The notes beneath the pieces are model-generated. The model was not told the DNA's origin and did no database searches. It worked only from the letters and a program-made list of their open reading frames with translations. From Flavobacterium granuli (GTDB taxonomy: Bacteria; Bacteroidota; Bacteroidia; Flavobacteriales; Flavobacteriaceae): DNA of 64,000 bases. Positions 7,324 to 60,967 of the stretch are shown in pieces (the first letter of the stretch is position 1; every line of letters starts with the position of its first letter). The stretch lies in contig NZ_FQWO01000001.1 in the NCBI RefSeq assembly GCF_900129705.1, positions 1 to 64,000 on the forward strand, read 5' to 3'. The position numbers and the translations under genes are program-made.

Positions 7324-7704
7324 ATGAAAATCGCAACTCTTATTATTCGAACTATGCTTGGGTTATTGTTTCTCTATACCTCCATCAGTTACTTTTTTCA
7401 CCTAACACCTGAGCCTGCATCCACGGGAGAATTCAAAGCATTTCAAGTAGGCTTGGTAGCATCTACCTACTTAATCCCTTTGGCAAAAACACTCGAACTA
7501 TTATGTGGATTATCCTTCGTTACTGGTAAATATATGACATTGGCCAACCTTGTTATTTTTCCGGTAACCATAAACATTTTACTGATCAATTACTTTTTGA
7601 CTCCAGAGAACTTGCCTATTGCTCTTTTTGTTTTCGTCGGCAACATCTTTCTAATTTTTACCCATTGGAAAAACTATAAAGGTCTTTTCATTGCTGACAA
7701 TTAA
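7324..7704 (+). CDS. DoxX-family membrane protein
   Basis: Small integral membrane protein of about 126 aa when started at the ATG at 7324 (MKIATLIIRTMLGLLFLY). This start puts a hydrophobic helix at the N-terminus, as in the family. The same frame is open upstream to a GTG at 7207, but the extra 39 residues are basic and not membrane-like, so I do not include them. Four hydrophobic segments can be seen. DoxX-like proteins are often linked to redox or quinone functions, but this member's role is unknown. It converges on lpdA and shares a hairpin with it. Confidence 0.75.
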   Translation: MKIATLIIRTMLGLLFLYTSISYFFHLTPEPASTGEFKAFQVGLVASTYLIPLAKTLELLCGLSFVTGKYMTLANLVIFPVTINILLINYFLTPENLPIALFVFVGNIFLIFTHWKNYKGLFIADN

Positions 7705-7740
7705 ATAGCTAACCCATTATAATTTGACCCTATTTACAAT

Positions 7741-7774
7741 AAAAAAACCGTTCAAATTGAACGGTTTTCTTGTT
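7741..7774. terminator. Bidirectional terminator between DoxX gene and lpdA
   Basis: Near-perfect palindrome AAACCGTTCAA / TTGAACGGTTT with A-run to its left and T-run to its right, placed between two convergent stops. Confidence 0.8.
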
Positions 7775-7789
7775 TGATCTTTTAAGAAA

Positions 7790-9193
7790 CTATACGTGTA
7801 GAGCTCTATTGTCAGTAGCGGCCAAGGCTGCTTCTTTTATTGCTTCTGCAAATGTAGGATGCGCATGAGACATTCTTGAAATATCTTCAGCAGAAGCTTT
7901 GAATTCCATTGCAGTAACTGCTTCAGCGATCAAATCGACTGTTCTGGCTCCAATCATATGAACTCCCAGGACTTCATCCGTTTTTGCATCGGCAAGGATT
8001 TTCACAAAACCATCCAAATCTCCACTCGCTCTGGCACGACCTAGCGCTTTGAAAGGAAAACTTCCTACTTTGTATTCAACACCAGAAGCTTTCAATTGCT
8101 CTTCTGTTTGTCCTACTGCAGCCACCTCTGGCCAAGTGTACACAACACCTGGAATTAAGTTGTAATCGATATGTGGTTTTTGACCGGCAATTATTTCAGC
8201 AACCATAGTTCCTTCTTCTTCTGCTTTGTGTGCCAACATCGCTCCGCGAACCACGTCACCAATAGCATAAATATTAGAAGCTGAAGTTTGCAAATGATCG
8301 TTTACTTCTACTTGTCCTCTATCGGAAATTTTTACTCCCGCTTTGTCCGCATTCAATCCGTCAGTGTAAGGACGACGCCCTACAGAAACCAAAGCGTAAT
8401 CCCCTTCAAGAGTGATTGTTTCTCCTTTTGCATTTTCGGCCTGAACTGTCACTGCATCTCCGTTTCTTTCTACTGATTGTACTTTGTGTGAAACGTAGAA
8501 CTTCATTCCTTGTTTCTTCAAGACTTTAGTCAATTCTTTAGACAATGAGCTGTCCATTCCGGGAATGATTCGGTCCATAAATTCCACTACGGATACTTGT
8601 GCGCCTAATCTTAAATATACCTGACCTAATTCGATACCAATTACTCCACCACCAATGATTACAAGATGTTTTGGAACTTCTTTAAGTGCCAAAGCTTCGG
8701 TTGAAGTAATGATTCTTTCTTTGTCAATTTTGATAAATGGCAAAGAAGATGGCTTAGAACCTGTTGCAATGATGATATTTTTACCTTCAATTGTTTCGGT
8801 TGTTCCGTCTTCTTTAGCGATAGCCACATGAGTTGCATCTACAAAAGAGCCCAAACCATTAAAAACAGTTATTTTATTCTTATCCATTAAGTAATTAATC
8901 CCGCCAGAAGTTTGGTCTACCACTGCTTTTTTACGGGCAATCATTTTCTCCAAGTTTACTTTCACTTCACCAGAAACTTCAATTCCATGATCTGCAAAAT
9001 GCTTAATTTCTGCATAATGATGAGAAGATGATAATAATGCCTTAGACGGAATACAGCCTACATTAAGACAAGTTCCTCCAAGATTGGAATATTTTTCAAT
9101 AATTGCTGTTTTGAAACCTAGCTGTGCACAACGAATCGCTGATACATATCCTCCTGGGCCAGAACCTATAATGACTACGTCAAATGAACTCAT
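7790..9193 (-). CDS. lpdA: Dihydrolipoyl dehydrogenase (E3)
   Basis: 467 aa flavoprotein that reoxidises dihydrolipoamide in 2-oxoacid dehydrogenase complexes or the glycine cleavage system. FAD-binding GSGPGG is at 11-16; redox disulfide Cys42/Cys47 lies in GGTCLNVGCIPSK; a second NAD-binding glycine motif is IIGGGVIGIELG; the C-terminal HAHPTFAEAIKE carries the His-Glu catalytic pair. I chose the ATG at 9193 (MSSFDVVIIG) because it begins directly before the FAD strand; an upstream in-frame ATG at 9232 would add 13 unlikely residues. No E1 or E2 genes are nearby. Confidence 0.95.
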   Translation of the reverse strand: MSSFDVVIIGSGPGGYVSAIRCAQLGFKTAIIEKYSNLGGTCLNVGCIPSKALLSSSHHYAEIKHFADHGIEVSGEVKVNLEKMIARKKAVVDQTSGGINYLMDKNKITVFNGLGSFVDATHVAIAKEDGTTETIEGKNIIIATGSKPSSLPFIKIDKERIITSTEALALKEVPKHLVIIGGGVIGIELGQVYLRLGAQVSVVEFMDRIIPGMDSSLSKELTKVLKKQGMKFYVSHKVQSVERNGDAVTVQAENAKGETITLEGDYALVSVGRRPYTDGLNADKAGVKISDRGQVEVNDHLQTSASNIYAIGDVVRGAMLAHKAEEEGTMVAEIIAGQKPHIDYNLIPGVVYTWPEVAAVGQTEEQLKASGVEYKVGSFPFKALGRARASGDLDGFVKILADAKTDEVLGVHMIGARTVDLIAEAVTAMEFKASAEDISRMSHAHPTFAEAIKEAALAATDNRALHV

Positions 9194-10544: not shown

Positions 10545-11744
10545 ATGAAATTCAATCCCGCAGACAACATTCAGGATTTACAGTATTTCGGAGAATTTGG
10601 CGGTGTTAATCCGTCGATTTCTGATTCCTCCACTTATACTTTCCTTTCGGCAAAAACCATGTTTGACACCTTTGAGGGCAATATGGAAGGCTGCTATCTC
10701 TACTCTCGCCATTCTTCACCCAGTAATCTATATTTAGACAAAGCCTTGGCTGCCATGGAAGGAACAGAAACGGCCAATGTATCTGCCTCAGGAATGGGAG
10801 CTATTACCCCTACTTTGTTACAACTGTGCGAAGCTGGTGATCATATTGTTTCGAGCCGAACAATTTACGGCGGAACCTATGCTTTTCTTAAGAATTTTGC
10901 CCCAAGATTAGGTATAAAAACAACTTTTGTAGACATTACAAAACTGGAAGTCGTTGAGGCTGCTATCACGCCAGAGACCAAAGTTTTATACTGCGAAACC
11001 GTAAGCAACCCCTTGCTTGAAGTGGCTGATATTGCCGGTTTATCAAAAATCGCCAAGAAACACAATTTAAAACTGGTTGTTGACAATACTTTTTCTCCTT
11101 TGTCAGTCACTCCAATTAAATTAGGTGCCGACATTGTCATTCACAGTTTGACCAAATACATCAACGGAAGCAGCGATACCGTTGGCGGTGTCACCTGCGC
11201 TTCGCAGGAATTCATCAATTCCCTAAAAAATGTAAACAGCGGTGCCAGCATGCTTCTTGGACCTACAATGGACAGCATGCGCTCTGCCAGCGTGATGAAA
11301 AATTTGCGCACCTTACATCTGAGGATAAAACAACACAGTCATAACGCCGCTTATCTTGCCGAACGCTTTGAAAAAGACGGCTTAAAAACGGTCTATCCAG
11401 GATTGAAAAGTCATCCCAGCCATCAGCTTTATAAATCAATGATCAACCCTGAATATGGTTTTGGCGGAATGATGACACTAGACGTAGGGACTTTGGCCAA
11501 AGCCAATGAGCTAATGGAATTGATGCAAGCTCGAAATTTGGGTTATCTTGCGGTAAGCCTAGGTTTTTATAAAACCCTCTTTAGTGCTCCCGGCACTTCA
11601 ACTTCAAGCGAAATCCCACTGGATGAGCAAGCCGAAATGGGACTCACCGATGGATTAATTCGTTTTTCGATAGGCCTAGACAACGATATCGAAAGAACCT
11701 ATAAAATGATGAAAAACTGCATGATTGAACTTGGAATACTATAG
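10545..11744 (+). CDS. Cys/Met metabolism PLP-dependent lyase (methionine gamma-lyase or cystathionine lyase type)
   Basis: 399 aa. The PLP Schiff-base lysine is K204 in HSLTKYINGSSD; the cofactor aspartate lies in VVDNTF near 180; YSRHSSPS near 53-60 and Y108 of TIYGGTY fit the trans-sulfuration enzyme fold. Candidate reactions are alpha,gamma-elimination of methionine or cleavage/synthesis of cystathionine. The divergent Lrp-type regulator favours an amino-acid degradation role. However, classical methionine gamma-lyases have a Cys two residues after the active-site Tyr (YGCTF); here that position is Gly110, as in cystathionine enzymes, so substrate specificity stays open. Confidence 0.8.
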   Translation: MKFNPADNIQDLQYFGEFGGVNPSISDSSTYTFLSAKTMFDTFEGNMEGCYLYSRHSSPSNLYLDKALAAMEGTETANVSASGMGAITPTLLQLCEAGDHIVSSRTIYGGTYAFLKNFAPRLGIKTTFVDITKLEVVEAAITPETKVLYCETVSNPLLEVADIAGLSKIAKKHNLKLVVDNTFSPLSVTPIKLGADIVIHSLTKYINGSSDTVGGVTCASQEFINSLKNVNSGASMLLGPTMDSMRSASVMKNLRTLHLRIKQHSHNAAYLAERFEKDGLKTVYPGLKSHPSHQLYKSMINPEYGFGGMMTLDVGTLAKANELMELMQARNLGYLAVSLGFYKTLFSAPGTSTSSEIPLDEQAEMGLTDGLIRFSIGLDNDIERTYKMMKNCMIELGIL

Positions 11745-11751
11745 GAGATAA

Positions 11752-11797
11752 AACAACTAATCCAGCTCAAAAAAATACTGAGCCGGATTAGTTGTTT
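11752..11797. terminator. Bidirectional terminator
   Basis: Long inverted repeat, AACAACTAATCCAGCTC against GAGCCGGATTAGTTGTT with one mismatch, between convergent genes ending at 11744 and 11799. Confidence 0.75.
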
Positions 11798-11798
11798 A

Positions 11799-12227
11799 TT
11801 ACTTAATGATAATTTCTTTTTTCGAATTAATTTTTACCACGCAAAAAGGATAAGTGATACTTTGGGAAACCATCGCATCAGGTTCTGGACTCGTTTCTTT
11901 TACGGTTATTATTATATTCTTGTCTGTTTCTACTACACTTTCTACTCCTACCGTATATCCTCCAGTCACTTTTTCGCCTAAATTCAAAATAACAAAATTT
12001 GATTGCTGAACATCTTCGGCACTGATTTTATTCTTTAAATGAGCATCGTTTTGCAACATTTTGATCTCATTCGGTTCTGTAAGAATTTCAAAAAAAAGAA
12101 TGCCGGCACCTCCTTGCTGCTGCTGAGTCAAGACTTCATACAAAGGCTGTTTTCCAGAATTTTTTGTAGCTACAGCCCCGCAGGAAACTAAAATTAAAAC
12201 GACTAAAATTGCTGTTATTTTTCTCAT
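11799..12227 (-). CDS. Lipoprotein with PrcB C-terminal-like domain
   Basis: 142 aa. Lipoprotein signal with lipobox LVSCG, lipidation at Cys16, so it is predicted to be membrane-anchored in the cell envelope. The C-terminal half (GGYTVGVESVVETDKNIIIT, then SITYPFCVVKI) matches the PrcB C-terminal domain, first named from a spirochaete dentilisin protease complex but common as stand-alone proteins in Flavobacteriia. Function here is unknown. It lies 31 bases after bshA on the same strand. Confidence 0.7.
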   Translation of the reverse strand: MRKITAILVVLILVSCGAVATKNSGKQPLYEVLTQQQQGGAGILFFEILTEPNEIKMLQNDAHLKNKISAEDVQQSNFVILNLGEKVTGGYTVGVESVVETDKNIIITVKETSPEPDAMVSQSITYPFCVVKINSKKEIIIK

Positions 12228-40488: not shown

Positions 40489-41250
40489 ATGTTCGGAATT
40501 TGTAATCTGGCTATAATCCCGCTTCGGTTTGAACCTAGCGACAGAAGTGAAATCGTTTCCCAAGTCCTGTTTGGCGAACATTTTGAAATTTTGGAAAAGT
40601 CAAAACAATGGTCTCGCATTAAAACACAATACGATAGTTATGAGGGCTGGGTAGATTCTAAACAATACCAATTAATTTCTGAAGAAAACTACAATCAGTT
40701 ATCTGATGACGTGATTGTTTTGAATTCGGATTTAATAGAATACATCACTGCGCCGTCTAATTTATTGTTGCCCATTCCATTAGGTTCGTCCTTATCTTTT
40801 TTAAAAAACAAGGAAATAAATACCGCTCAATTTTATTTTGAAGGCACAACAACCCAAGGCATTAAAGACAAAAAAGAACTGATAAAAACCGCTTTTTTAT
40901 ACCTTAACGCTCCATATCTATGGGGAGGAAAAACTCCTTTTGGCATAGACTGTTCCGGTTTTACACAGATGGTTTACAAACTCAATGGATATAAATTATT
41001 CCGAGACGCATCGCAACAAGCCCTCCAAGGTGAAGCTCTAAGTTTTATAGAAGAAAGCGAGCCCGGAGATCTGGCTTTTTTTGATAACGAAGAAGGAAAC
41101 ATTACCCATGTGGGCATCATAATGGAAAACAATTACATCATTCATGCCAGCGGAAAAATAAGAATCGACAGATTAGATCACTTAGGGATTTACAATGCGG
41201 AAATCAATAAGCACACACACAAACTTAGGGTTATTAAAAAAATAATCTAA
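40489..41250 (+). CDS. SH3-domain NlpC/P60 (C40) cysteine peptidase
   Basis: 253 aa. N-terminal bacterial SH3-like region (about 1-62: CNLAIIPLRFEPSDRSEIVS), a second SH3-like linker, then the NlpC/P60 domain with Cys155 in FGIDCSGFTQ, His207 in THVGIIM and His219 in IIHASG. Cuts peptide stems of murein, commonly gamma-D-Glu to diamino-acid bonds. No signal peptide is visible; such homologues in Bacteroidota are thought to act on recycled muropeptides in the cytoplasm, which is inference. Confidence 0.9.
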   Translation: MFGICNLAIIPLRFEPSDRSEIVSQVLFGEHFEILEKSKQWSRIKTQYDSYEGWVDSKQYQLISEENYNQLSDDVIVLNSDLIEYITAPSNLLLPIPLGSSLSFLKNKEINTAQFYFEGTTTQGIKDKKELIKTAFLYLNAPYLWGGKTPFGIDCSGFTQMVYKLNGYKLFRDASQQALQGEALSFIEESEPGDLAFFDNEEGNITHVGIIMENNYIIHASGKIRIDRLDHLGIYNAEINKHTHKLRVIKKII

Positions 41251-41251
41251 A

Positions 41252-41291
41252 AAAAAACCTGTTTGAAAATAATTTCAAACAGGTTTTTTTA
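41252..41291. terminator. Bidirectional terminator
   Basis: AACCTGTTTGAAA / TTTCAAACAGGTT stem with A-run and T-run on either side, between the convergent C40 peptidase and TPR genes. Confidence 0.9.
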
Positions 41292-41308
41292 TCAATATCA
41301 ATCCGATT

Positions 41309-42577
41309 TTACATTTTAGCTTTCAATGCTTTATATTCTGTAGTCATCTCCAAAGCACTGTAAACGTTCAAAAGAGTTTTAGCCACATCTTCGTTTTTAG
41401 GATCTAATTCGTATCCTTTTTTAAGGAATGGAATTACGCTCTTAAATACATTTTCTCTCTTTAACTTCAACTCATCATAGCGCTTCATGTCTTTTGTAGA
41501 AGTACCTAATTTATTCATTTCATCAATAATAGGTCTTTCAGCTTCCAGTTTCAAAGCCGCTAAGTTGATATAAGCATTGATATAATCCGGCTTAATCTCA
41601 ATTGCACGCAAGTAATATTTCTCAGCCTCAGCCTTGTTATTTGCATTACCGCTGATTACTCCTAAATTAAAAACCAAATCAGCATCATTAGGGCTCTTCT
41701 CCAAAACCTCTCCAATTAACTTTTTGTAAGTTTCAAAGTCTTTAGTTTCCAGATACAAATTAGCTTCCGTTAATACTAATGAAGAATCTTCCGGGTTTAA
41801 TTTTCTAGCTTCAGAAACTGCTTTTTTAGCTTCTTCAATCTTTCCATTTTGAACCAAAATCAAAGCTATATTCTTGTATATCTCTCCTCTTTTTGAAGGA
41901 ACAACCTCAGTTTTTGGTTTTTCATGCGTTCCCAATTTCACCATTTTATCTCTTTCTTGCGCAGTAGCAAAAAGATCTTCCTGACCACTTACTTTATTAA
42001 CTGCTAAATAATTTGTAGCCTTTCCTGAATAATTCAGTTTTTTCAAAACATCATACAATTCCAATGCTTTATCATACTCTTTAGAATTAACATAAGTAGA
42101 TGCGGCATAATACAAATTGATGGTGTCTTTTTTGTCTAACAAATAAGCATCATATAATTTTTTGGCGCTTTCAGAATGTTTTTCAACCTTAGAATCAGCA
42201 ATAGCACCATTGATCAGCTTATTTTTTATATCTGTTATAGAGGTTGCAGCCTGAGTAGAATACTTTACTTTACCAGACTCTTTTTCTACAGCAATCAACT
42301 CCTGATAAGCCGCAGCAGCGGTACTTAAATTTTTATCCGTATCAATATTTTTATTAGCCAATTCCAAAAACGTATTTCCTTTTATAAAGAAAAACAATGC
42401 TTTCTCTGCCTCAGCAGCATTGGTAACTAAATATTCTGCACCTTGCAAAATTGTTGCTGCTTCTTGAGCCTCCCCTTTTTTTAGCGCTTTTTCAGCTGCT
42501 TTAATTTGATCCTTTTGAGCAAAAGTAGCTACCGATATCAATAAAGCTGATGCTAGTATTACATATTTACTTTTCAT
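41309..42577 (-). CDS. Tetratricopeptide-repeat secreted protein
   Basis: 422 aa from the ATG at 42577 (MKSKYVILASALLISVATFA), which opens a signal peptide; a TTG 9 bases upstream is less likely. Helical repeats, including AEKYYLRAIEIKPDYINAYI and EAKKAVSEARKLNPEDSSLV, are TPRs. TPR proteins act as scaffolds in complexes. It follows gyrA by 53 bases on the same strand; this gyrA-TPR order is seen in other Flavobacteriia, but no functional link is known to me. Confidence 0.85.
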   Translation of the reverse strand: MKSKYVILASALLISVATFAQKDQIKAAEKALKKGEAQEAATILQGAEYLVTNAAEAEKALFFFIKGNTFLELANKNIDTDKNLSTAAAAYQELIAVEKESGKVKYSTQAATSITDIKNKLINGAIADSKVEKHSESAKKLYDAYLLDKKDTINLYYAASTYVNSKEYDKALELYDVLKKLNYSGKATNYLAVNKVSGQEDLFATAQERDKMVKLGTHEKPKTEVVPSKRGEIYKNIALILVQNGKIEEAKKAVSEARKLNPEDSSLVLTEANLYLETKDFETYKKLIGEVLEKSPNDADLVFNLGVISGNANNKAEAEKYYLRAIEIKPDYINAYINLAALKLEAERPIIDEMNKLGTSTKDMKRYDELKLKRENVFKSVIPFLKKGYELDPKNEDVAKTLLNVYSALEMTTEYKALKAKM

Positions 42578-53926: not shown

Positions 53927-55441
53927 TTAAGCCATTGTTAACAAATCTTCTTCAATCTGAAAACTATTTAAAAAAGAAACCGTTTTTTCGATGTCATAAT
54001 GTAAAATTCTATCCTCTGTAACCAACGGAACTTCCTCACGATAAGAGCTCAAAAACATCTCGATAAAATCACTCGATTGCAATGGTCTTCGGTATTGAAT
54101 CGCTTGGGAAGCATTCATCAGCTCGATCGCTAATATACGCTCCAGATTATCCATGATACGCAATGCTTTTGTCGCGCCATTAGCGCCCATACTCACATGA
54201 TCCTCCTGTCCGTTACTGGAAACAATACTATCTATACTTGAGGGCGTGGCCAATTGCTTATTCTGACTGGCAATACTCGCCGCGGTATATTGTGGAATCA
54301 TAAAACCCGAATTCAGTCCCGGATTATCCACTAAAAATGCAGGTAGATTTCGCAATCCCGATATCAATTGATAGGTTCTGCGCTCAGAAATACTTCCTAA
54401 TTCTGCCAAGGCGATTGCCATAAAATCTAATGCCAATGCTAAAGGTTGCCCATGAAAATTCCCCCCCGAAATGATCTCGTCACTCTCAATAAAAATATTT
54501 GGATTATCGGTAACCGAGTTAATTTCTGTTTTAAAAACTTTTCTTACATAATCAATAGCATCTTTAGAAGCGCCATGAACTTGCGGCACACAACGGAAAG
54601 AATAGGGATCCTGAACGTGCGTTTTTTCCTGTTCAATAATTTCACTTCCTTCTAAGAATCCTTTAATGCGATTCGCTGTTACGATTTGTCCTTTATGAGG
54701 ACGAATAAAATGGATCAATTCGTGAAAAGGCTCAATACGACCATCAAAGCCTTCCAATGATATCGATGCGATCAAATCGGCGAGATATGAAAATTTATTG
54801 GCTTTCATCAAAATATGAACTCCATAAGCACTCATGAACTGCGTGCCGTTCAATAGGGCCAAACCTTCTTTGGACTGTAATACAATTGGTTCCCATTCAA
54901 AATGCTTCAATACTTCTGAAGAATGTACTTTTTTGCCTTCAAAATAAACTTCCCCTTCACCCAACAAAGGCAAAGATAAATGAGCCAGTGGGGCCAAATC
55001 GCCCGAAGCTCCCAGCGATCCCTGAGTATAAATTACCGGCAGAATATCATTATTGTAAAAAGCGATCAAACGCTCGACTGTTTGCAATTGAATCCCAGAA
55101 TGCCCATAACTCAAAGATTGAATTTTGAGCAACAACATCAGTTTTACAATTTCAGCAGGAACCTCTTCACCTGTCCCGCAAGAATGCGATTTAACTAAGT
55201 TTTCCTGCAATTTTGATAAGTTCTCATTGGATATTTTGACATTACAAAGTGAGCCAAAACCGGTATTTATTCCATAAATAGGTTCAGAATGTGAAGCCAT
55301 CTTTTTATCCAAAAAATCCCTGCATTTTTGAATATTTACCCTGGCTTCTTCAGACAATTCCAATAATTTATGTTGTGAAATAATCTCTTGAACTATTTCT
55401 AAGGAAAGTACAGCAGTACTTATATAATGTTTATTATCCAT
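53927..55441 (-). CDS. hutH: Histidine ammonia-lyase
   Basis: 504 aa MIO-type lyase that converts histidine to urocanate. The self-forming cofactor triad is Ala145-Ser146-Gly147 in GSLGASGDLAPLAHLSL; YGINTGFGSL and NLVKSHSCGTG are also present. The flanking GASGDLAPLAHL agrees with histidine rather than tyrosine lyases. No hutU, hutI or hutG lies within the window. Family members with other substrates exist in Flavobacterium, so substrate is probable, not proven. Confidence 0.9.
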   Translation of the reverse strand: MDNKHYISTAVLSLEIVQEIISQHKLLELSEEARVNIQKCRDFLDKKMASHSEPIYGINTGFGSLCNVKISNENLSKLQENLVKSHSCGTGEEVPAEIVKLMLLLKIQSLSYGHSGIQLQTVERLIAFYNNDILPVIYTQGSLGASGDLAPLAHLSLPLLGEGEVYFEGKKVHSSEVLKHFEWEPIVLQSKEGLALLNGTQFMSAYGVHILMKANKFSYLADLIASISLEGFDGRIEPFHELIHFIRPHKGQIVTANRIKGFLEGSEIIEQEKTHVQDPYSFRCVPQVHGASKDAIDYVRKVFKTEINSVTDNPNIFIESDEIISGGNFHGQPLALALDFMAIALAELGSISERRTYQLISGLRNLPAFLVDNPGLNSGFMIPQYTAASIASQNKQLATPSSIDSIVSSNGQEDHVSMGANGATKALRIMDNLERILAIELMNASQAIQYRRPLQSSDFIEMFLSSYREEVPLVTEDRILHYDIEKTVSFLNSFQIEEDLLTMA

Positions 55442-55860
55442 CGGGTATCGAATTTAAGAAGCCAAAATTCAATAAATCAATATTAAAAAGCAACATATAT
55501 TAATAATAATTTAAAAATCTCATCAATATACATCCATTTAACAAATCTTAGCTAATTAATACGTTACTATCATATTCTTTATGATTATATAAATTATGTT
55601 TTTAACAGCCAATAATTTGGAATAGCTCTTTTTTAAAAACTTCTCTCGTTATTAAAACAATAGACAAACAATTGCTGATTGGCCTTAAAGTGGACTAATT
55701 TATCGAATTAAAATTCCAAAAAAGCCTTCAAGCAAATCTCTTATTTTGGCAAAAAAAAAAATGATTGTATCAACAAAAGGCGCCTAAATTAAGAAATAGT
55801 CAGCGAGAGCCAAATTCCCTATTCCTTTTTAAAATATTCGCAAAAAGACTGTTACAGCTT
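55442..55860. other. Intergenic region between hutH and the thr operon promoter
   Basis: About 420 very AT-rich bases between divergent genes. It must contain the hutH promoter, but no convincing element stands out. No ORF or RNA is supported. Confidence 0.5.
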
Positions 55861-55888
55861 TTGAGTTTGTAAAAAAACCGTACATTTG
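55861..55888 (+). promoter_or_regulatory. Promoter of the threonine operon
   Basis: TTG at 55861-55863, 17-base spacer, TACATTTG at 55881-55888 (exact TAnnTTTG). Transcription would begin within about ten bases of the leader-peptide ATG at 55899. Confidence 0.65.
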
Positions 55889-55898
55889 AAAAACCATA

Positions 55899-56003
55899 AT
55901 GTCAAGTAACAGAACAACATATCATTCTTCACTAACAACTCCAATTAGAGTTGCGGCTTCTGCTACTTCTACAATTACTACAACAACTACCACTACCCCT
56001 TAG
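55899..56003 (+). CDS. thrL: Threonine-rich leader peptide of the thr operon
   Basis: 34 codons plus TAG, starting about ten bases after the -7 box. It encodes 13 threonines and two isoleucines; codons 27-33 are seven Thr in a row, preceded by Ile and followed by Pro and stop. Such runs just upstream of thrABC are the hallmark of ribosome-mediated attenuation, as in E. coli thrL, though the sequences are not homologous. It ends 111 bases before the thrA ATG. When charged threonyl-tRNA is scarce, a ribosome would stall in the run and change folding of the RNA beyond it. Too short for automatic gene calling. Confidence 0.85.
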   Translation: MSSNRTTYHSSLTTPIRVAASATSTITTTTTTTP

Positions 56004-56052
56004 GGGTATACATTTTACATATAAACCTATATTTATATTTTTCTTTTTTTTT
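55994..56052 (+). promoter_or_regulatory. Putative attenuator hairpins and T-tract of the thr operon
   Basis: A perfect hairpin TACCCC (55994-55999) / GGGGTA (56003-56008) with a 3-base loop sits over the last Thr codons and the stop of the leader. An alternative pairing TAGG (56001-56004) with CCTA (56026-56029) would break it and leads straight into a T-rich tract (about 56036-56052). The two are mutually exclusive, as expected for an attenuator, but the second stem is weak. Which form terminates is inference. Confidence 0.5.
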
Positions 56053-56114
56053 AGAAAGAGAAGAATCACACACATAAATAGCTCAATCCTTTTTTCAAAA
56101 TAAAAACAATTAGA

Positions 56115-58562
56115 ATGAAAGCATTAAAATTTGGCGGAACTTCCGTTGCCAATGCCCAAAATATAAAATTAGTCCTCAACATAGTTCTCCATCAGGCAAA
56201 ACAAGATAAACTAGTCGTAGTGGTATCGGCACTGAGTAAAGTAACTGATTTGCTTCAGTTGGCCGCCACAAAAGCCGCCGCTAAAGACGAAAGTTACAAA
56301 GAAATTGTAGCCGAAATCGAGAAAAAACATTTAGATACACTAAAAGAACTTATTCCTGTAAGTCAACAAAGCAGCTTGCTGAGTCATATCAAACGAATCA
56401 TCAATCATCTGGAGACCTTATTGGATGGCTGTTTCCTTTTAGGGGAATTGTCCCGCAGAACATCAGATACGATTTTGAGCTTTGGCGAATTATTATCTTC
56501 GTATATTATTGCCGAAGCATTAAAACAGAATTTAAAAAACTCCAGTTATAAAGACAGCCGCGAGCTGATCAAAACTAACAGCAATTTTGGCAAAGCCGCT
56601 GTCAATTTTGAACTTACAAACCAAAACATCACTGAGTTTTTTGCTTCCGATGACAGCCAAGTTGTGGTGATGCCCGGATTTATTGCTTCTACTCTTGACG
56701 GAATTACGACTACTTTAGGCCGCGGTGGTTCCGATTATACTGCTGCCATAATCGCCGGAGCGCTGCATGCAAGCGATTTGGAAATCTGGACTGATGTAAA
56801 CGGTATGTATACCGCCAATCCGAAAATAGTAAAACAAGCCCGACCTATCGCCTCAATTTCTTATCAGGAAGCGATGGAGTTGTCTCATTTTGGTGCCAAA
56901 GTGTTGTTTCCTCCAACAATCCAACCTGTTTTGAGGAAAAACATTCCCATCCATATTAAAAACACTTTTGAACCGGAAGCTATCGGCACTTGCATTTCAA
57001 ATAACGTATTTCACCACACTAATCCTGTAAAAGGAATCAGCCATATCGACAATATTACATTGATAACCTTAGAAGGTTCCGGTATGATTGGAGTTTCGGG
57101 TTCATCCAAAAGGTTATTTGAGGTATTGTCACAAGAAAACATTAATGTCATTTTCATTACCCAAGCCTCTTCTGAGCATTCCATCTGCATCGGAATTCTG
57201 AATACTGATGCTGATCTTGCCGAAAATGCGATCAACAAAGCTTTTGAAATTGAGATTTTACAAAACAAAATAGATTCTTGTATCGTCGAAAAAAACCTTT
57301 GCATTGCGGCTCTGGTGGGAGAAAACATGAAAAATCATCAGGGTTTGAGCGGCAAAATGTTCAGTACTTTAGGAAAAAACAATGTCAACATTCGAGCCAT
57401 TGCCCAAGGCGCATCCGAAAGAAACATATCAGTGGTAATCAACGAAAGAGACGTAAAAAAAGCGCTGAACAGCCTTCACGAACGTTTTTTTGAAGACAAT
57501 ACCAAACAGCTGAACCTGTTTGTGATGGGAGTTGGGAACGTGGGCGAAAAATTTATCGAACAAATCAATCAGCAAAAAAAATTCCTCAAAGACAACTTAA
57601 AAATAAACCTCAGAGTTATCGCTTTGTCCAATTCCAGAAAAATGCATTTTGACGAAGACGGAATTGATCTAAAATCGTGGCAGTCCGCTTTAGAAAATAG
57701 CGAGGAAGCCAACAAAGAGTTATTTATCGAAAAAGTAAAAAAATTGAATTTACGCAACAGTATTTTTGTGGACATCACCGCCAATGAAACTGTTTCCAGA
57801 ACATACGAACACTATTTAAGGGAAAATGTGGCCGTGGTAACTTGCAACAAAATTGCCTGTTCCTCCGCTTATGACAATTATAAAAACCTCAAAAATTTAT
57901 CCAGAAAGTTCAATGCCCCTTTTCTTTTTGAAACCAATGTTGGCGCGGGATTACCTATTATAGATACTGTAAAAAATCTAGTCGCTTCTGGTGATAAAGT
58001 CAATAAAATACAAGCTGTTTTGTCTGGAAGTCTGAATTTTATTTTTAATAATTTTGATGAAAGGAGCTCTTTTCACGACGTGGTAAAAGAAGCCGGTGTA
58101 CAAGGATTTACAGAGCCCGATCCAAAGATTGATTTGAGCGGAATTGACGTTGCCCGAAAGATTTTAATTTTGATTCGCGAGAGCGGTTACCAAATGGAAA
58201 TTGAAGAAATTGAAAATAAATCCTTCCTTCCCGCAGCATGCATGGACACATCAAATAACGAGGATTTTTTTAAATCCTTAATAGAACATAAAAGTCATTT
58301 CGAAGGAATTTTGGCGGAAGCCAAAGAAAAAGACAGCCGATTGAAATTTGTTGCTCAATTCGAAAATGGCAAAGCAAGCGTTGATTTGCAATTTATCCCA
58401 AAAGACCATCCTTTTTACAATTTGGAAGGAAAAGACAATATCGTATTGTTCTATACGGATCGTTACGTCGATCAGCCATTGTTGATAAAAGGCGCCGGTG
58501 CGGGAGCCGCCGTAACCGCTTCGGGGATTTTTGCCGATGTAATCAGAATAGGAAATGTATAA
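56115..58562 (+). CDS. thrA: Bifunctional aspartate kinase / homoserine dehydrogenase
   Basis: 815 aa. Aspartate kinase at about 1-290 (MKALKFGGTSVANAQNI, GRGGSDYTAAIIAGAL), two ACT regulatory domains at about 310-460 (KMFSTLGKNNVNIRAIAQGA), homoserine dehydrogenase at about 465-815 (FVMGVGNVGEKF, VGAGLPIIDTV, GSLNFIFN, EPDPKIDLSG). It performs the first and third steps from aspartate to threonine. First structural gene behind the leader peptide; feedback control by threonine through ACT domains is known for the family. Confidence 0.97.
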   Translation: MKALKFGGTSVANAQNIKLVLNIVLHQAKQDKLVVVVSALSKVTDLLQLAATKAAAKDESYKEIVAEIEKKHLDTLKELIPVSQQSSLLSHIKRIINHLETLLDGCFLLGELSRRTSDTILSFGELLSSYIIAEALKQNLKNSSYKDSRELIKTNSNFGKAAVNFELTNQNITEFFASDDSQVVVMPGFIASTLDGITTTLGRGGSDYTAAIIAGALHASDLEIWTDVNGMYTANPKIVKQARPIASISYQEAMELSHFGAKVLFPPTIQPVLRKNIPIHIKNTFEPEAIGTCISNNVFHHTNPVKGISHIDNITLITLEGSGMIGVSGSSKRLFEVLSQENINVIFITQASSEHSICIGILNTDADLAENAINKAFEIEILQNKIDSCIVEKNLCIAALVGENMKNHQGLSGKMFSTLGKNNVNIRAIAQGASERNISVVINERDVKKALNSLHERFFEDNTKQLNLFVMGVGNVGEKFIEQINQQKKFLKDNLKINLRVIALSNSRKMHFDEDGIDLKSWQSALENSEEANKELFIEKVKKLNLRNSIFVDITANETVSRTYEHYLRENVAVVTCNKIACSSAYDNYKNLKNLSRKFNAPFLFETNVGAGLPIIDTVKNLVASGDKVNKIQAVLSGSLNFIFNNFDERSSFHDVVKEAGVQGFTEPDPKIDLSGIDVARKILILIRESGYQMEIEEIENKSFLPAACMDTSNNEDFFKSLIEHKSHFEGILAEAKEKDSRLKFVAQFENGKASVDLQFIPKDHPFYNLEGKDNIVLFYTDRYVDQPLLIKGAGAGAAVTASGIFADVIRIGNV

Positions 58563-58569
58563 CTCAGTC

Positions 58570-58636
58570 GTAAAGTCGAATGCTATAAAGTTCGAAAATC
58601 ATTCACTTGATTTCGTGCCTATTTCTACGACTTTAC
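58570..58636. repeat. Separated inverted repeat between thrA and thrB
   Basis: GTAAAGTCG (58570-58578) and CGACTTTAC (58628-58636) are perfect complements 49 bases apart in the 92-base gap. They could pair in the mRNA and affect thrB translation or mRNA stability. Confidence 0.4.
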
Positions 58637-58654
58637 CACTTTAAGACTCATAAT

Positions 58655-59590
58655 ATGAACGAAATAAAAATATTCTGCCCGGCCACAATCGCTAATTTAT
58701 CCTGTGGTTTTGATGTCCTGGGTTTGTGTTTAGACAATGTGGGCGATGAAATGATTATCAAAAAATCGACCACCAAAGGAATTCGCATCACTAAAATTGT
58801 GGGTGCCGATTTGCCGCTGGAAACCGAACAAAATGTAGCCGGAGTAGCCGCTTTGGCACTGATTGAAGCTGTAGAAGCTAAATTGGGTCCAATAACCATC
58901 GGATTTGATATCGAAATTTACAAAAACATCAAAGCCGGAAGCGGTATTGGGAGCAGTGCTGCGAGTGCTGCGGGAGCCGTTTTTGGCATCAATGCTTTGC
59001 TGGAAAGTCCTTTTGAGATAAAAGATTTGGTACAATTTGCCATGCAAGGCGAAAAACTTGCCTGCGGAAACGCGCATGCCGATAATGTGGCTCCTGCTCT
59101 TTTGGGTGGCTTTACCTTGGTGAGAAGCTATACTCCATTGGACATCATAAAAATTGAAAGTCCTTCGGAATTATACGCTACGGTGGTACATCCGCAGATT
59201 GAATTGAAAACTTCGGATGCGCGTTCGGTATTAAAACAAAACGTTTCTCTAAAAAGTGCCATTATGCAATGGGGAAATGTGGGCGGATTGATTGCCGGTT
59301 TATACACTCAGGATTACGACTTGATAGGCCGTTCGTTACATGACGAAATTGTGGAGCCCATTCGCAGTGTCTTAATTCCGGGTTTTGATTTAATCAAACA
59401 GACCGCTTTAGAAAATGGCGCTTTGGGTTCAGGAATATCCGGTTCCGGGCCCTCTATTTTTGCTTTAAGCAAAGGGGCGGCAACCGCTCAAAAAATCGCA
59501 AAAGCCATGAGTGCCGTCTATGAAGAAATGAATCTCCCTTACGAAATTCATGTTTCTAAAGTGAATGACCAAGGAATGAAAATAATATAA
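58655..59590 (+). CDS. thrB: Homoserine kinase
   Basis: 311 aa GHMP kinase. Start at the ATG 58655 (MNEIKIFCPATIANLSCGFD); a longer frame exists but the family begins here. The ATP loop is GSGIGSSAASAAGAVFGIN near 90-108, and the third motif GSGISGSGPSIFAL lies near 275. Second gene of the operon. Confidence 0.96.
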   Translation: MNEIKIFCPATIANLSCGFDVLGLCLDNVGDEMIIKKSTTKGIRITKIVGADLPLETEQNVAGVAALALIEAVEAKLGPITIGFDIEIYKNIKAGSGIGSSAASAAGAVFGINALLESPFEIKDLVQFAMQGEKLACGNAHADNVAPALLGGFTLVRSYTPLDIIKIESPSELYATVVHPQIELKTSDARSVLKQNVSLKSAIMQWGNVGGLIAGLYTQDYDLIGRSLHDEIVEPIRSVLIPGFDLIKQTALENGALGSGISGSGPSIFALSKGAATAQKIAKAMSAVYEEMNLPYEIHVSKVNDQGMKII

Positions 59591-59677
59591 GAATTTTGAT
59601 TAACGCTTTTTGATTTCAGATGTAACTTAATGTTGCGAAAAAAATCACAAATCGTTAATCCTCAATCAAAAATCATA

Positions 59678-60967
59678 ATGAAATATTACAGTTTAAACCA
59701 TAATGCACCAAAAGTTTCTTTTAAAGAAGCCGTAATACAAGGATTAGCCAGCGATAAAGGATTGTATTTTCCCGAAACAATCACACCTTTGCCGCAAGCT
59801 TTTTTTGATAATATCGAAAATTTAAGTCACGAAGCAATTGCTTTTGAAGCCATCCAGCCATTTGTGGGAGATGAAATTCCAGCAGCTGCCTTAAAACAAA
59901 TCATTGCCGAAACCTTATGTTTTGATTTTCCTGTCGTTGCAGTCGAAAAAGGAATTTATTCCCTTGAATTGTTTCACGGACCTACGATGGCCTTCAAGGA
60001 CGTGGGAGCGCGTTTCATGTCGCGCTGTTTGGCGTATTTTAACAAAGATAAAAAAGACAGTAAAAATACCGTACTTGTCGCCACATCCGGAGATACTGGC
60101 GGTGCCGTTGCCAGCGGTTTCCTGGGCGTTGATGGCGTTGAAGTCGTGATTTTATATCCTTCGGGAAAGGTGAGTGACATTCAGGAAAAACAACTCACAA
60201 CTCTGGGACAAAACATAAAAGCGCTGGAAGTGGACGGCGTTTTTGATGATTGTCAGGATATGGTCAAGAAAGCGTTTCTAGACGAAAGTCTACAACATAA
60301 AAACCTGACATCGGCAAACTCGATCAATATTGCGCGCTGGTTGCCCCAAATGTTCTATTTTTTCTTTGCTTACAAAGCCTTGAAGAAGCAAAACAAAGAA
60401 CTGGTTTTTTCCTGCCCAAGCGGGAATTTTGGAAATATCTGTGCCGGGATTATGGCTAAAAAATTGGGGCTACCCCTACTTCATTTTGTCGCTTCGACGA
60501 ATGTGAATGATACGGTAGTCCGCTTTTTAGAAAAAGGCATTTACGACCCAAAACCTTCCAAGGCAACTATTTCGAATGCGATGGATGTGGGAAATCCAAG
60601 TAATTTCATTCGCATTCAGGAAATGTACCAAAATGATTTGGAACAATTCAGCAAAGATTTTTCGTCTTATTCATTTACGGATGAAGAAACAAAAAAAGCC
60701 ATGAAATCCATTTTTGAAACCGATGGTTATATAGCTGAACCGCATGGTGCCGTAGGCTATTTAGGGTTGAAAAAAGAATTAAAAAATTACCCCAATGCGA
60801 TTGGTGTTTTCTTAGAAACGGCACATCCTATCAAATTCTTGGATGTGGTGGAACCTTTACTAAAAATAAAACTGCCTATTCCTACACAAATAGAAAGTGT
60901 GATGAATAAAGAAAAAGTAAGCACTAAAATTAAAAGCTACGAAGAATTGAAAGCTTTTTTAGGTTAA
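59678..60967 (+). CDS. thrC: Threonine synthase
   Basis: 429 aa PLP enzyme. PLP lysine K107 in HGPTMAFKDVGARFM; glycine-rich cofactor loop SCPSGNFGNICAG; N-terminal KYYSLNHNAPKVSF is typical of the long bacterial form. The ATG at 59678 is chosen; 16 upstream in-frame codons do not match the family. Completes the aspartate-to-threonine steps begun by ThrA and ThrB. Confidence 0.96.
   Translation: MKYYSLNHNAPKVSFKEAVIQGLASDKGLYFPETITPLPQAFFDNIENLSHEAIAFEAIQPFVGDEIPAAALKQIIAETLCFDFPVVAVEKGIYSLELFHGPTMAFKDVGARFMSRCLAYFNKDKKDSKNTVLVATSGDTGGAVASGFLGVDGVEVVILYPSGKVSDIQEKQLTTLGQNIKALEVDGVFDDCQDMVKKAFLDESLQHKNLTSANSINIARWLPQMFYFFFAYKALKKQNKELVFSCPSGNFGNICAGIMAKKLGLPLLHFVASTNVNDTVVRFLEKGIYDPKPSKATISNAMDVGNPSNFIRIQEMYQNDLEQFSKDFSSYSFTDEETKKAMKSIFETDGYIAEPHGAVGYLGLKKELKNYPNAIGVFLETAHPIKFLDVVEPLLKIKLPIPTQIESVMNKEKVSTKIKSYEELKAFLG

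Follow-up and report, generated by a model that had tools for sequence, protein, structure and literature searches.

A conserved threonine-rich leader peptide upstream of thrABC in Flavobacterium granuli, a probable ribosome-mediated threonine sensor without a canonical terminator

Does the short threonine-rich reading frame in front of the threonine biosynthesis genes of Flavobacterium granuli serve as a leader peptide, and by which means could such a leader switch off the operon? The locus was analyzed in a window of 64,000 nt, i.e. the whole stretch of DNA under study, together with related loci from the genus, the family, and the class. The operon and its leader comprise the following features:

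55899–56003, + strand: ORF of the thr leader peptide (MSSNRTTYHSSLTTPIRVAASATSTITTTTTTTP), 34 codons, 13 Thr, stop codon TAG
55977–55997, + strand: sensor codons, seven consecutive Thr codons, followed by Pro and then TAG
56115–58562, + strand: thrA, bifunctional aspartate kinase/homoserine dehydrogenase I (NCBIfam NF006959, 1050 bits; cut-off 726)
58607–59590, + strand: thrB, homoserine kinase (NCBIfam NF002288, 405 bits; cut-off 194)
59630–60967, + strand: thrC, threonine synthase (NCBIfam TIGR00260, 299 bits; cut-off 167)

The three genes scored above their cut-offs and follow the leader in the order thrA-thrB-thrC, all on the + strand. The reading frame of 34 codons with 13 Thr, seven of them in a row, which the original prediction had placed before thrA, was confirmed. 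For thrB, the ATG at 58655 is more likely to be the start than 58607. The divergent gene upstream of the leader scored as histidine ammonia-lyase. The run of seven Thr codons had a single match in the window and was found in 0 of 100 shuffles.

For the analysis of conservation, thrA upstream regions were collected at three levels. Besides the window itself, the 90 genus loci comprise the 29 best further matches and 60 selected down the match list (thrA matches in 248 of 299 genomes, some to the paralogue only). For the rest of the family, 97 of 120 genomes had matches, of which the 29 best were taken and another 40 selected, giving 69 loci from genera other than Flavobacterium. The 26 class-level loci (L165 to L190; 50 of 197 genomes matched) include one, L165, from the same family as Flavobacterium. 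An ORF of 8–80 aa with at least 4 Thr among its last 12 residues and a stop codon 55–300 nt before thrA was counted as a leader. Such a leader was present in 85 of the 90 Flavobacterium regions (controls: reverse strand 0, shuffled 1), in 36 of 69 family loci (reverse strand 1, shuffled 0), and in 11 of 26 class-level loci (0 in both controls). In a second collection of loci from named genomes, which overlaps the 90 genus loci in many genomes and is therefore not independent, 80 of 80 loci carry the leader together with a TAnnTTTG box 4–14 nt before an ATG; the window ThrA is 82–88% identical to the ThrA of these loci, of which 74 are titled Flavobacterium. The thr counts exclude two paralogues, L002 and L003. 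L002, which encodes an aspartate kinase/homoserine dehydrogenase in this genome, is without a leader, its best upstream ORF having 18 aa and 3 Thr and thus fewer than the four Thr asked for.

Since slippage could yield ACN-rich DNA, the leader ORF might be regarded as a chance low-complexity stretch. We give this explanation next to no weight, because the Thr-rich frame before thrA is conserved far above the controls and because start box and stop position are kept in the genus; the leader conservation, the Thr run missing from all shuffles, and the complete set of named-genome loci refute it.

Thr makes up 60% of the last 12 leader residues in the genus. In the family and class leaders, Ile is the second most common residue at these positions (12–14%), which would fit isoleucine sensing, threonine being the precursor of isoleucine. 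In some family leaders (L152, for example with MSLNNTNITTTSTITMVVIAMTITTMTL, and L157), Met (and Ile) codons accompany the Thr codons, as though a single leader responded to more than one product of the aspartate family.

The start of transcription is predicted to lie very close to the leader ATG:

55860–55888, + strand: predicted promoter, TTTG + 17-nt spacer + TACATTTG, Bacteroidota −33/−7 type, from the sequence
55893–55894, + strand: predicted transcription start, from the −7-to-start spacing in F. johnsoniae (PMC6847099)

The 3′ end of the promoter lies 10 nt from the ATG, in agreement with the promoter that had been predicted almost directly before the leader. As a bare pattern, TTTG-N17-TACATTTG is not rare (3 in the window vs 0.8 expected; at least 3 in 8 of 100 shuffles). 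Start and stop geometry was evaluated for leaders with at least 3 Thr among the last 12 residues (86 of 90 genus and 50 of 69 family loci), and a TAnnTTTG box was located 6–14 nt 5′ of the ATG in 83 of the 86 genus loci, while outside the genus the box precedes the ATG in only 8 of the 50 family leaders. In probable promoters of F. johnsoniae, transcription starts 4–5 nt past the −7 element (PMC6847099), so that a 5′-untranslated region of about 5–6 nt is predicted for the thr leader. This would be unusual, since in 87% of the predicted F. johnsoniae transcripts the leader exceeds 10 nt (PMC6847099), and a share of 5.5% is given for leaderless mRNAs in PMC9723704. Bacteroidota mRNAs are described as being without Shine-Dalgarno sequences (PMC6847099). 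The near-leaderless start suggested earlier would agree with the predicted length of the 5′-untranslated region and with the box spacing conserved in the genus.

The original prediction had further proposed alignment over Flavobacterium species and RNA folding as checks. The segment 55893–56060 folds better than 200 of 200 shuffles (z −3.7). The Thr-rich leader is shared by 85 of 90 genus loci, and an alignment of 55 sequences yielded a covarying stem inside the ORF. Two hairpins belong to this part of the transcript:

55936–55953, + strand: P0, hairpin within the leader ORF, CAACTC-CAATTA-GAGTTG, from RNAalifold and covariation
55994–56008, + strand: P1, hairpin spanning the leader stop codon, TACCCC-TTA-GGGGTA, from folding and a consensus scan

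RNAalifold recovered 5 of the 6 P0 pairs from 55 aligned leaders; of the 90 genus loci, 34 did not match the P1 pattern and 1 had no box. Compensatory changes, with both sides altered, were found in 4 of 6 pairs, and 95.5% of cells are paired; with the pairing slid out of register, at most 66% of cells are paired vs 97% in place. The covariation score of the structure was reached by 0 of 500 shuffles, with the caveat that related sequences may exceed such shuffles without any structure. These data show P0 as an RNA hairpin, and we regard it as a candidate RNA polymerase pause hairpin, at which pausing is probable.

The constancy of P1 in the 55-locus alignment is built in, because these loci were chosen by their C-run/G-run pattern. 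Its relation to the stop codon was evaluated separately by searching distances from −6 to +14 nt: with the first G of P1 as reference, the stop codon falls between −3 and +10 nt in 85 of the 86 leaders from the genus and in 46 of the 50 from the family. Its position varies, being inside the P1 loop, directly after GGGG, or farther on, and a ribosome terminating within this range would cover the Gs. The hairpin that had been predicted over the stop codon is present, with a geometry kept in nearly all of the genus leaders sampled. In one class-level family, f16 (L180, L185, L187, L188, and L189), the leader ends with ACGGGGTAA, ACGGGGTGA, or ACGGGGTAG, and in most of them CCCGT or a similar C-rich stretch comes next, i.e. 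a mirror of P1 with the G arm first; no U-tract terminator was scored in these five loci.

From the stop codon towards thrA, the following elements were considered:

56003–56027, + strand: candidate alternative pairing of GGGGTATA (56003–56010) with TATAAACC (56020–56027), by eye
56017–56027, + strand: conserved element ACATAT[AC]A[T/A]CC between P1 and P2, beginning 14 nt past the stop codon
56037–56066, + strand: P2, downstream hairpin with 13 pairs and loop TTTA, no U-tract after it (p 0.01)
56019–56052, + strand: all-A/T hairpin ATATAAA/TTTATAT (56019–56038), then a T-rich tract (56039–56052), a species-level alternative

The alternative pairing that had been claimed exists, but in F. granuli it is weak, with 6 pairs and 2 mismatches as read from the sequence. 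To model the stalled state in silico, the RNA under a ribosome in the Thr run was deleted before folding, for 85 of the 90 loci from the genus and 48 of the 69 from the family. In these folds, the G run paired most often with AAUCC, in at least 31 of 85 genus loci; in the remaining 54 it was not a confident partner, and the partners were varied or uncertain, some of them near or inside thrA. Among the 48 family loci, no G-run partner recurred in more than two. P1 and the GGGG:AUCC pairing would compete, and from such models a GGGG:AUCC switch seems plausible in the genus and no more than conjectural beyond it. The combination of P1 with ACATAT[AC]A[T/A]CC was matched by 31 of the 61 genus genomes searched, and by none of the 61 when reversed as a control. 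The match lies in 27 cases directly upstream of thrA; for three of the others (G013, G025, and G060) no place of thrA was recorded, and in G030 the thrA match is incomplete at its start.

P2 was taken for each locus as the best hairpin in a 55-nt region, its exact place not being part of the test. Compared with shuffled sequence, it reached p ≤ 0.05 in 37 of the 82 genus loci tested out of 90 (about 4 expected) and in 30 of the 58 family loci tested out of 69 (about 3 expected). Several P2 are near-perfect palindromes, e.g. TTGTAATTTTAATAATTACAA, and would thus suit a DNA operator for a protein repressor, with the peptide only tuning expression. We consider such an operator very improbable: the loop-side stem comprises 43 distinct sequences in the 58 family loci with the pairing kept, which is closer to an RNA hairpin than to the site of one protein, and P2 lies about 140 nt into the predicted transcript. 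P2 is accordingly treated here as an RNA hairpin.

The T-rich tract of the original prediction is real (56039–56052), but it forms mostly the 5′ arm of P2, and no G+C-rich stem stands before it. A hairpin AUAUAA/UUAUAU followed by the T tract is clear in F. granuli and some relatives; as a conserved feature it is weak (p ≤ 0.05 in 2 and p ≤ 0.2 in 30 of 75 genus loci, the 75 being drawn from 90). A long stem closing P2, formed by the AUCC element and a downstream GGAU (GGATGTATA in near relatives), had looked convincing by eye in these relatives, but it is not supported, since shuffled versions of the downstream sequence scored equally well (mean z 0.02; rank 0.05 in 1 of 77 genus loci tested out of 90). 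Ahead of thrA (56060–56114 in the window), GGATGTATAAAA and a stretch resembling CATTTGCATTTTTAAAATAAAACAAACAAA recur among near relatives.

An attenuator with all parts in order, as originally claimed, would include an intrinsic terminator, and this part of the claim was not supported. At the locus itself, the only terminator-like site in a consensus terminator scan was P1. For a comparison with other leaders, U-tract terminators were scored after d'Aubenton Carafa over positions −10 to +130 relative to the leader stop, using only loci with a leader. In this even scan, 0 of 85 Flavobacterium thr leaders had such a terminator. In 16 genomes, F. granuli among them, the his leaders scored in 13 of 15 and the trp leaders in 16 of 16 cases, so that thr stands apart from his and trp in this respect. 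Outside the genus, thr terminators were found in 2 of 36 family loci (L140 and L159, each with a textbook thr leader and terminator) and in 3 of 11 class loci, the Thr criterion leaving out the class loci L181, L182, and L190. A less even scan covered the region after P1 for thr in genus and family, the last 200 nt for thr in the class, and the last 220 nt for his, trp, and ilv. It gave 0 of 90 genus, 4 of 69 family, and 6 of 26 class loci for thr, also catching a few hairpins unlinked to the leader (L148 and L161); of the loci for the other operons, 14 of 16 (his), 15 of 16 (trp), and 5 of 15 (ilv) scored. The class-level thr positives (L181 to L184, L186, and L190) all belong to one family, f39, in which a Thr/Ile leader is followed by a G+C-rich stem and a U-tract. 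In L182, L184, L186, and L190, the leader end shares sequence with the 3′ arm of the stem (by eye) and could therefore pair with its 5′ arm.

Canonical termination is in use in this genome, as several window genes end in strong hairpins with T-tracts. Convergent gene pairs in the window share two-way terminators composed of an A-tract, a strong stem, and a T-tract (7704–7790, 11744–11799, and 41250–41309). Textbook leaders with U-tract terminators precede trpE (L230, WWW), hisG (L209, HHHH), and ilvD (L191, Ile/Val-rich) in the same genome, so that the leader-peptide mechanism is at home in the lineage. Having no intrinsic terminator, the thr leader is not filed as a classical transcription attenuator. 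What stood of the leader/attenuator claim as a whole is the conserved Thr-rich leader before thrABC; canonical termination did not.

The sequence and regulation of the enterobacterial thr attenuator (thrL; Rfam RF00506, Thr_leader) serve as the reference for a comparison. Like thrL, the F. granuli leader is a Thr-rich peptide upstream of a thrA-type gene with a hairpin near its stop codon, and the leaders are Thr/Ile-rich in other genera studied here. Unlike thrL, the Flavobacterium leader is without a canonical terminator, its ATG lies about 5 nt from the predicted start, and P0 is situated inside the ORF. An Rfam scan of 55000–57000 (E up to 1) gave no match, including RF00506 (cut-off 55 bits) and RF01705 (Flavo-1). 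Among 20 related loci, the best scores for RF00506 came from class-level relatives with a faint likeness below this cut-off (L190, 36.5 bits; L184, 31.7 bits), and RF01705 had no match (E up to 0.5).

The thr leader also resembles the Bacteroid-trp (RF01692) and his leaders, in which a short peptide rich in the amino acid of the operon is followed by the biosynthetic genes. RF01692, listed for the Bacteroidota trp leader in PMC2864571, matches the F. granuli trp leader with 81 bits; this was the sole Rfam match among the trpE, hisG, and ilvD loci. From the regions in front of amino-acid biosynthesis operons in F. psychrophilum, strong indications of attenuation by leader peptides have been reported (PMC9723704), and short ORFs reminiscent of leader peptides are known from Bacteroides (PMC7366714). 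Leader-peptide attenuation in Bacteroidota has thus already been proposed, and the statement that it is little described in this phylum applies less than claimed. The words 'threonine' and 'thrA' are absent from the main text of PMC9723704, whose supplementary Table S7 may include thr. Among the literature matches listed, titles and abstract beginnings named no Bacteroidota thr leader; an earlier mention is possible, subscription papers falling mostly outside this scope.

Leader conservation, P0, P2, and a stop codon positioned at the G run make it very likely that the ribosome senses threonine through this leader, and the threonine-sensing leader peptide appears about as secure as comparative genomics allows. 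The full mechanism, a ribosome-mediated threonine-sensing leader controlling thrABC in cis, we hold to be probable; our confidence is slightly reduced by the fact that AAUCC is a confident partner of the G run in less than half of the genus folds. Transcription would start about 5 nt 5′ of the leader ATG, and RNA polymerase would pause at P0, giving a ribosome the opportunity to load on the near-leaderless message. With ample threonyl-tRNA, the ribosome would reach the stop codon and cover the GGGG of P1, the downstream RNA would fold into P2, and thrABC expression would end early. With scarce threonyl-tRNA, the ribosome would halt in the Thr run and cover the CCCC arm of P1, and the freed GGGG would pair with the conserved ...AUCC element, thereby blocking the off-state. 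Judged from its sequence features, the leader would work like a classical attenuator except for the last step. If premature transcription termination is the output, it would need to be non-canonical in Flavobacterium because no U-tract terminator was found, and it may be helped by NusA/NusG or Rho.

One form of this last step, whose likelihood overlaps with that of the mechanism just described, is Rho-dependent attenuation: once the ribosome has departed from the stop codon, Rho would load on the naked RNA downstream, which a stalled ribosome, together with GGGG:AUCC pairing, would prevent. The absent intrinsic terminator and the conservation of ACATATMATCC just past the stop codon, which is greater than pairing alone fully explains, would agree with this; however, the region is C-poor by eye, and a Rho loading site was not recognised in it. 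We therefore consider the Rho form unlikely, if deserving some weight. Less probable still is that the same sensor has another output, the leader governing translation or decay of the thrA message instead of transcription termination. P2 kept without a U-tract and no canonical terminator in Flavobacterium thr leaders would suit such an output. Masking of the thrA start site, however, is not supported, as the predicted accessibility of this region does not differ between the stalled and the terminated state (0.59 vs 0.60 in 85 genus loci; 0.53 vs 0.53 in 48 family loci). Also, among genus loci with a leader, between 63 and 267 nt separate the leader stop from thrA, and in the long gaps the added sequence sits between P2 and thrA (by eye), which speaks against this output as well.

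Returning to the ribosome-mediated mechanism with early termination, it is quite possible, and we propose it tentatively, that Flavobacterium and most of the sampled leader-bearing genera of the family have kept the ribosome sensor and replaced the U-tract terminator by another off-switch, with his and trp remaining classical. The sensor parts would then be the near-leaderless peptide, P0, P1, ACATATMATCC, and the palindromic P2, and the off-switch might for example be factor-dependent termination as the ribosome leaves the stop codon. By its conservation, the locus suggests close coupling of ribosome and RNA polymerase in amino-acid control in Bacteroidota, and it suggests that a peptide begun about 5 nt from the 5′ end is able to act as a sensor. 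The thr leader and the his and trp leaders provide an internal contrast within one genome with regard to premature termination without a U-tract.

A Flavobacterium-type thr locus with a ThrA 84–85% identical to that of the window was also present in two metagenome-assembled genomes labelled Lentimicrobium (L314) and Klebsiella pneumoniae (L315); judging from these sequences, both records are probably mislabelled or mis-binned.
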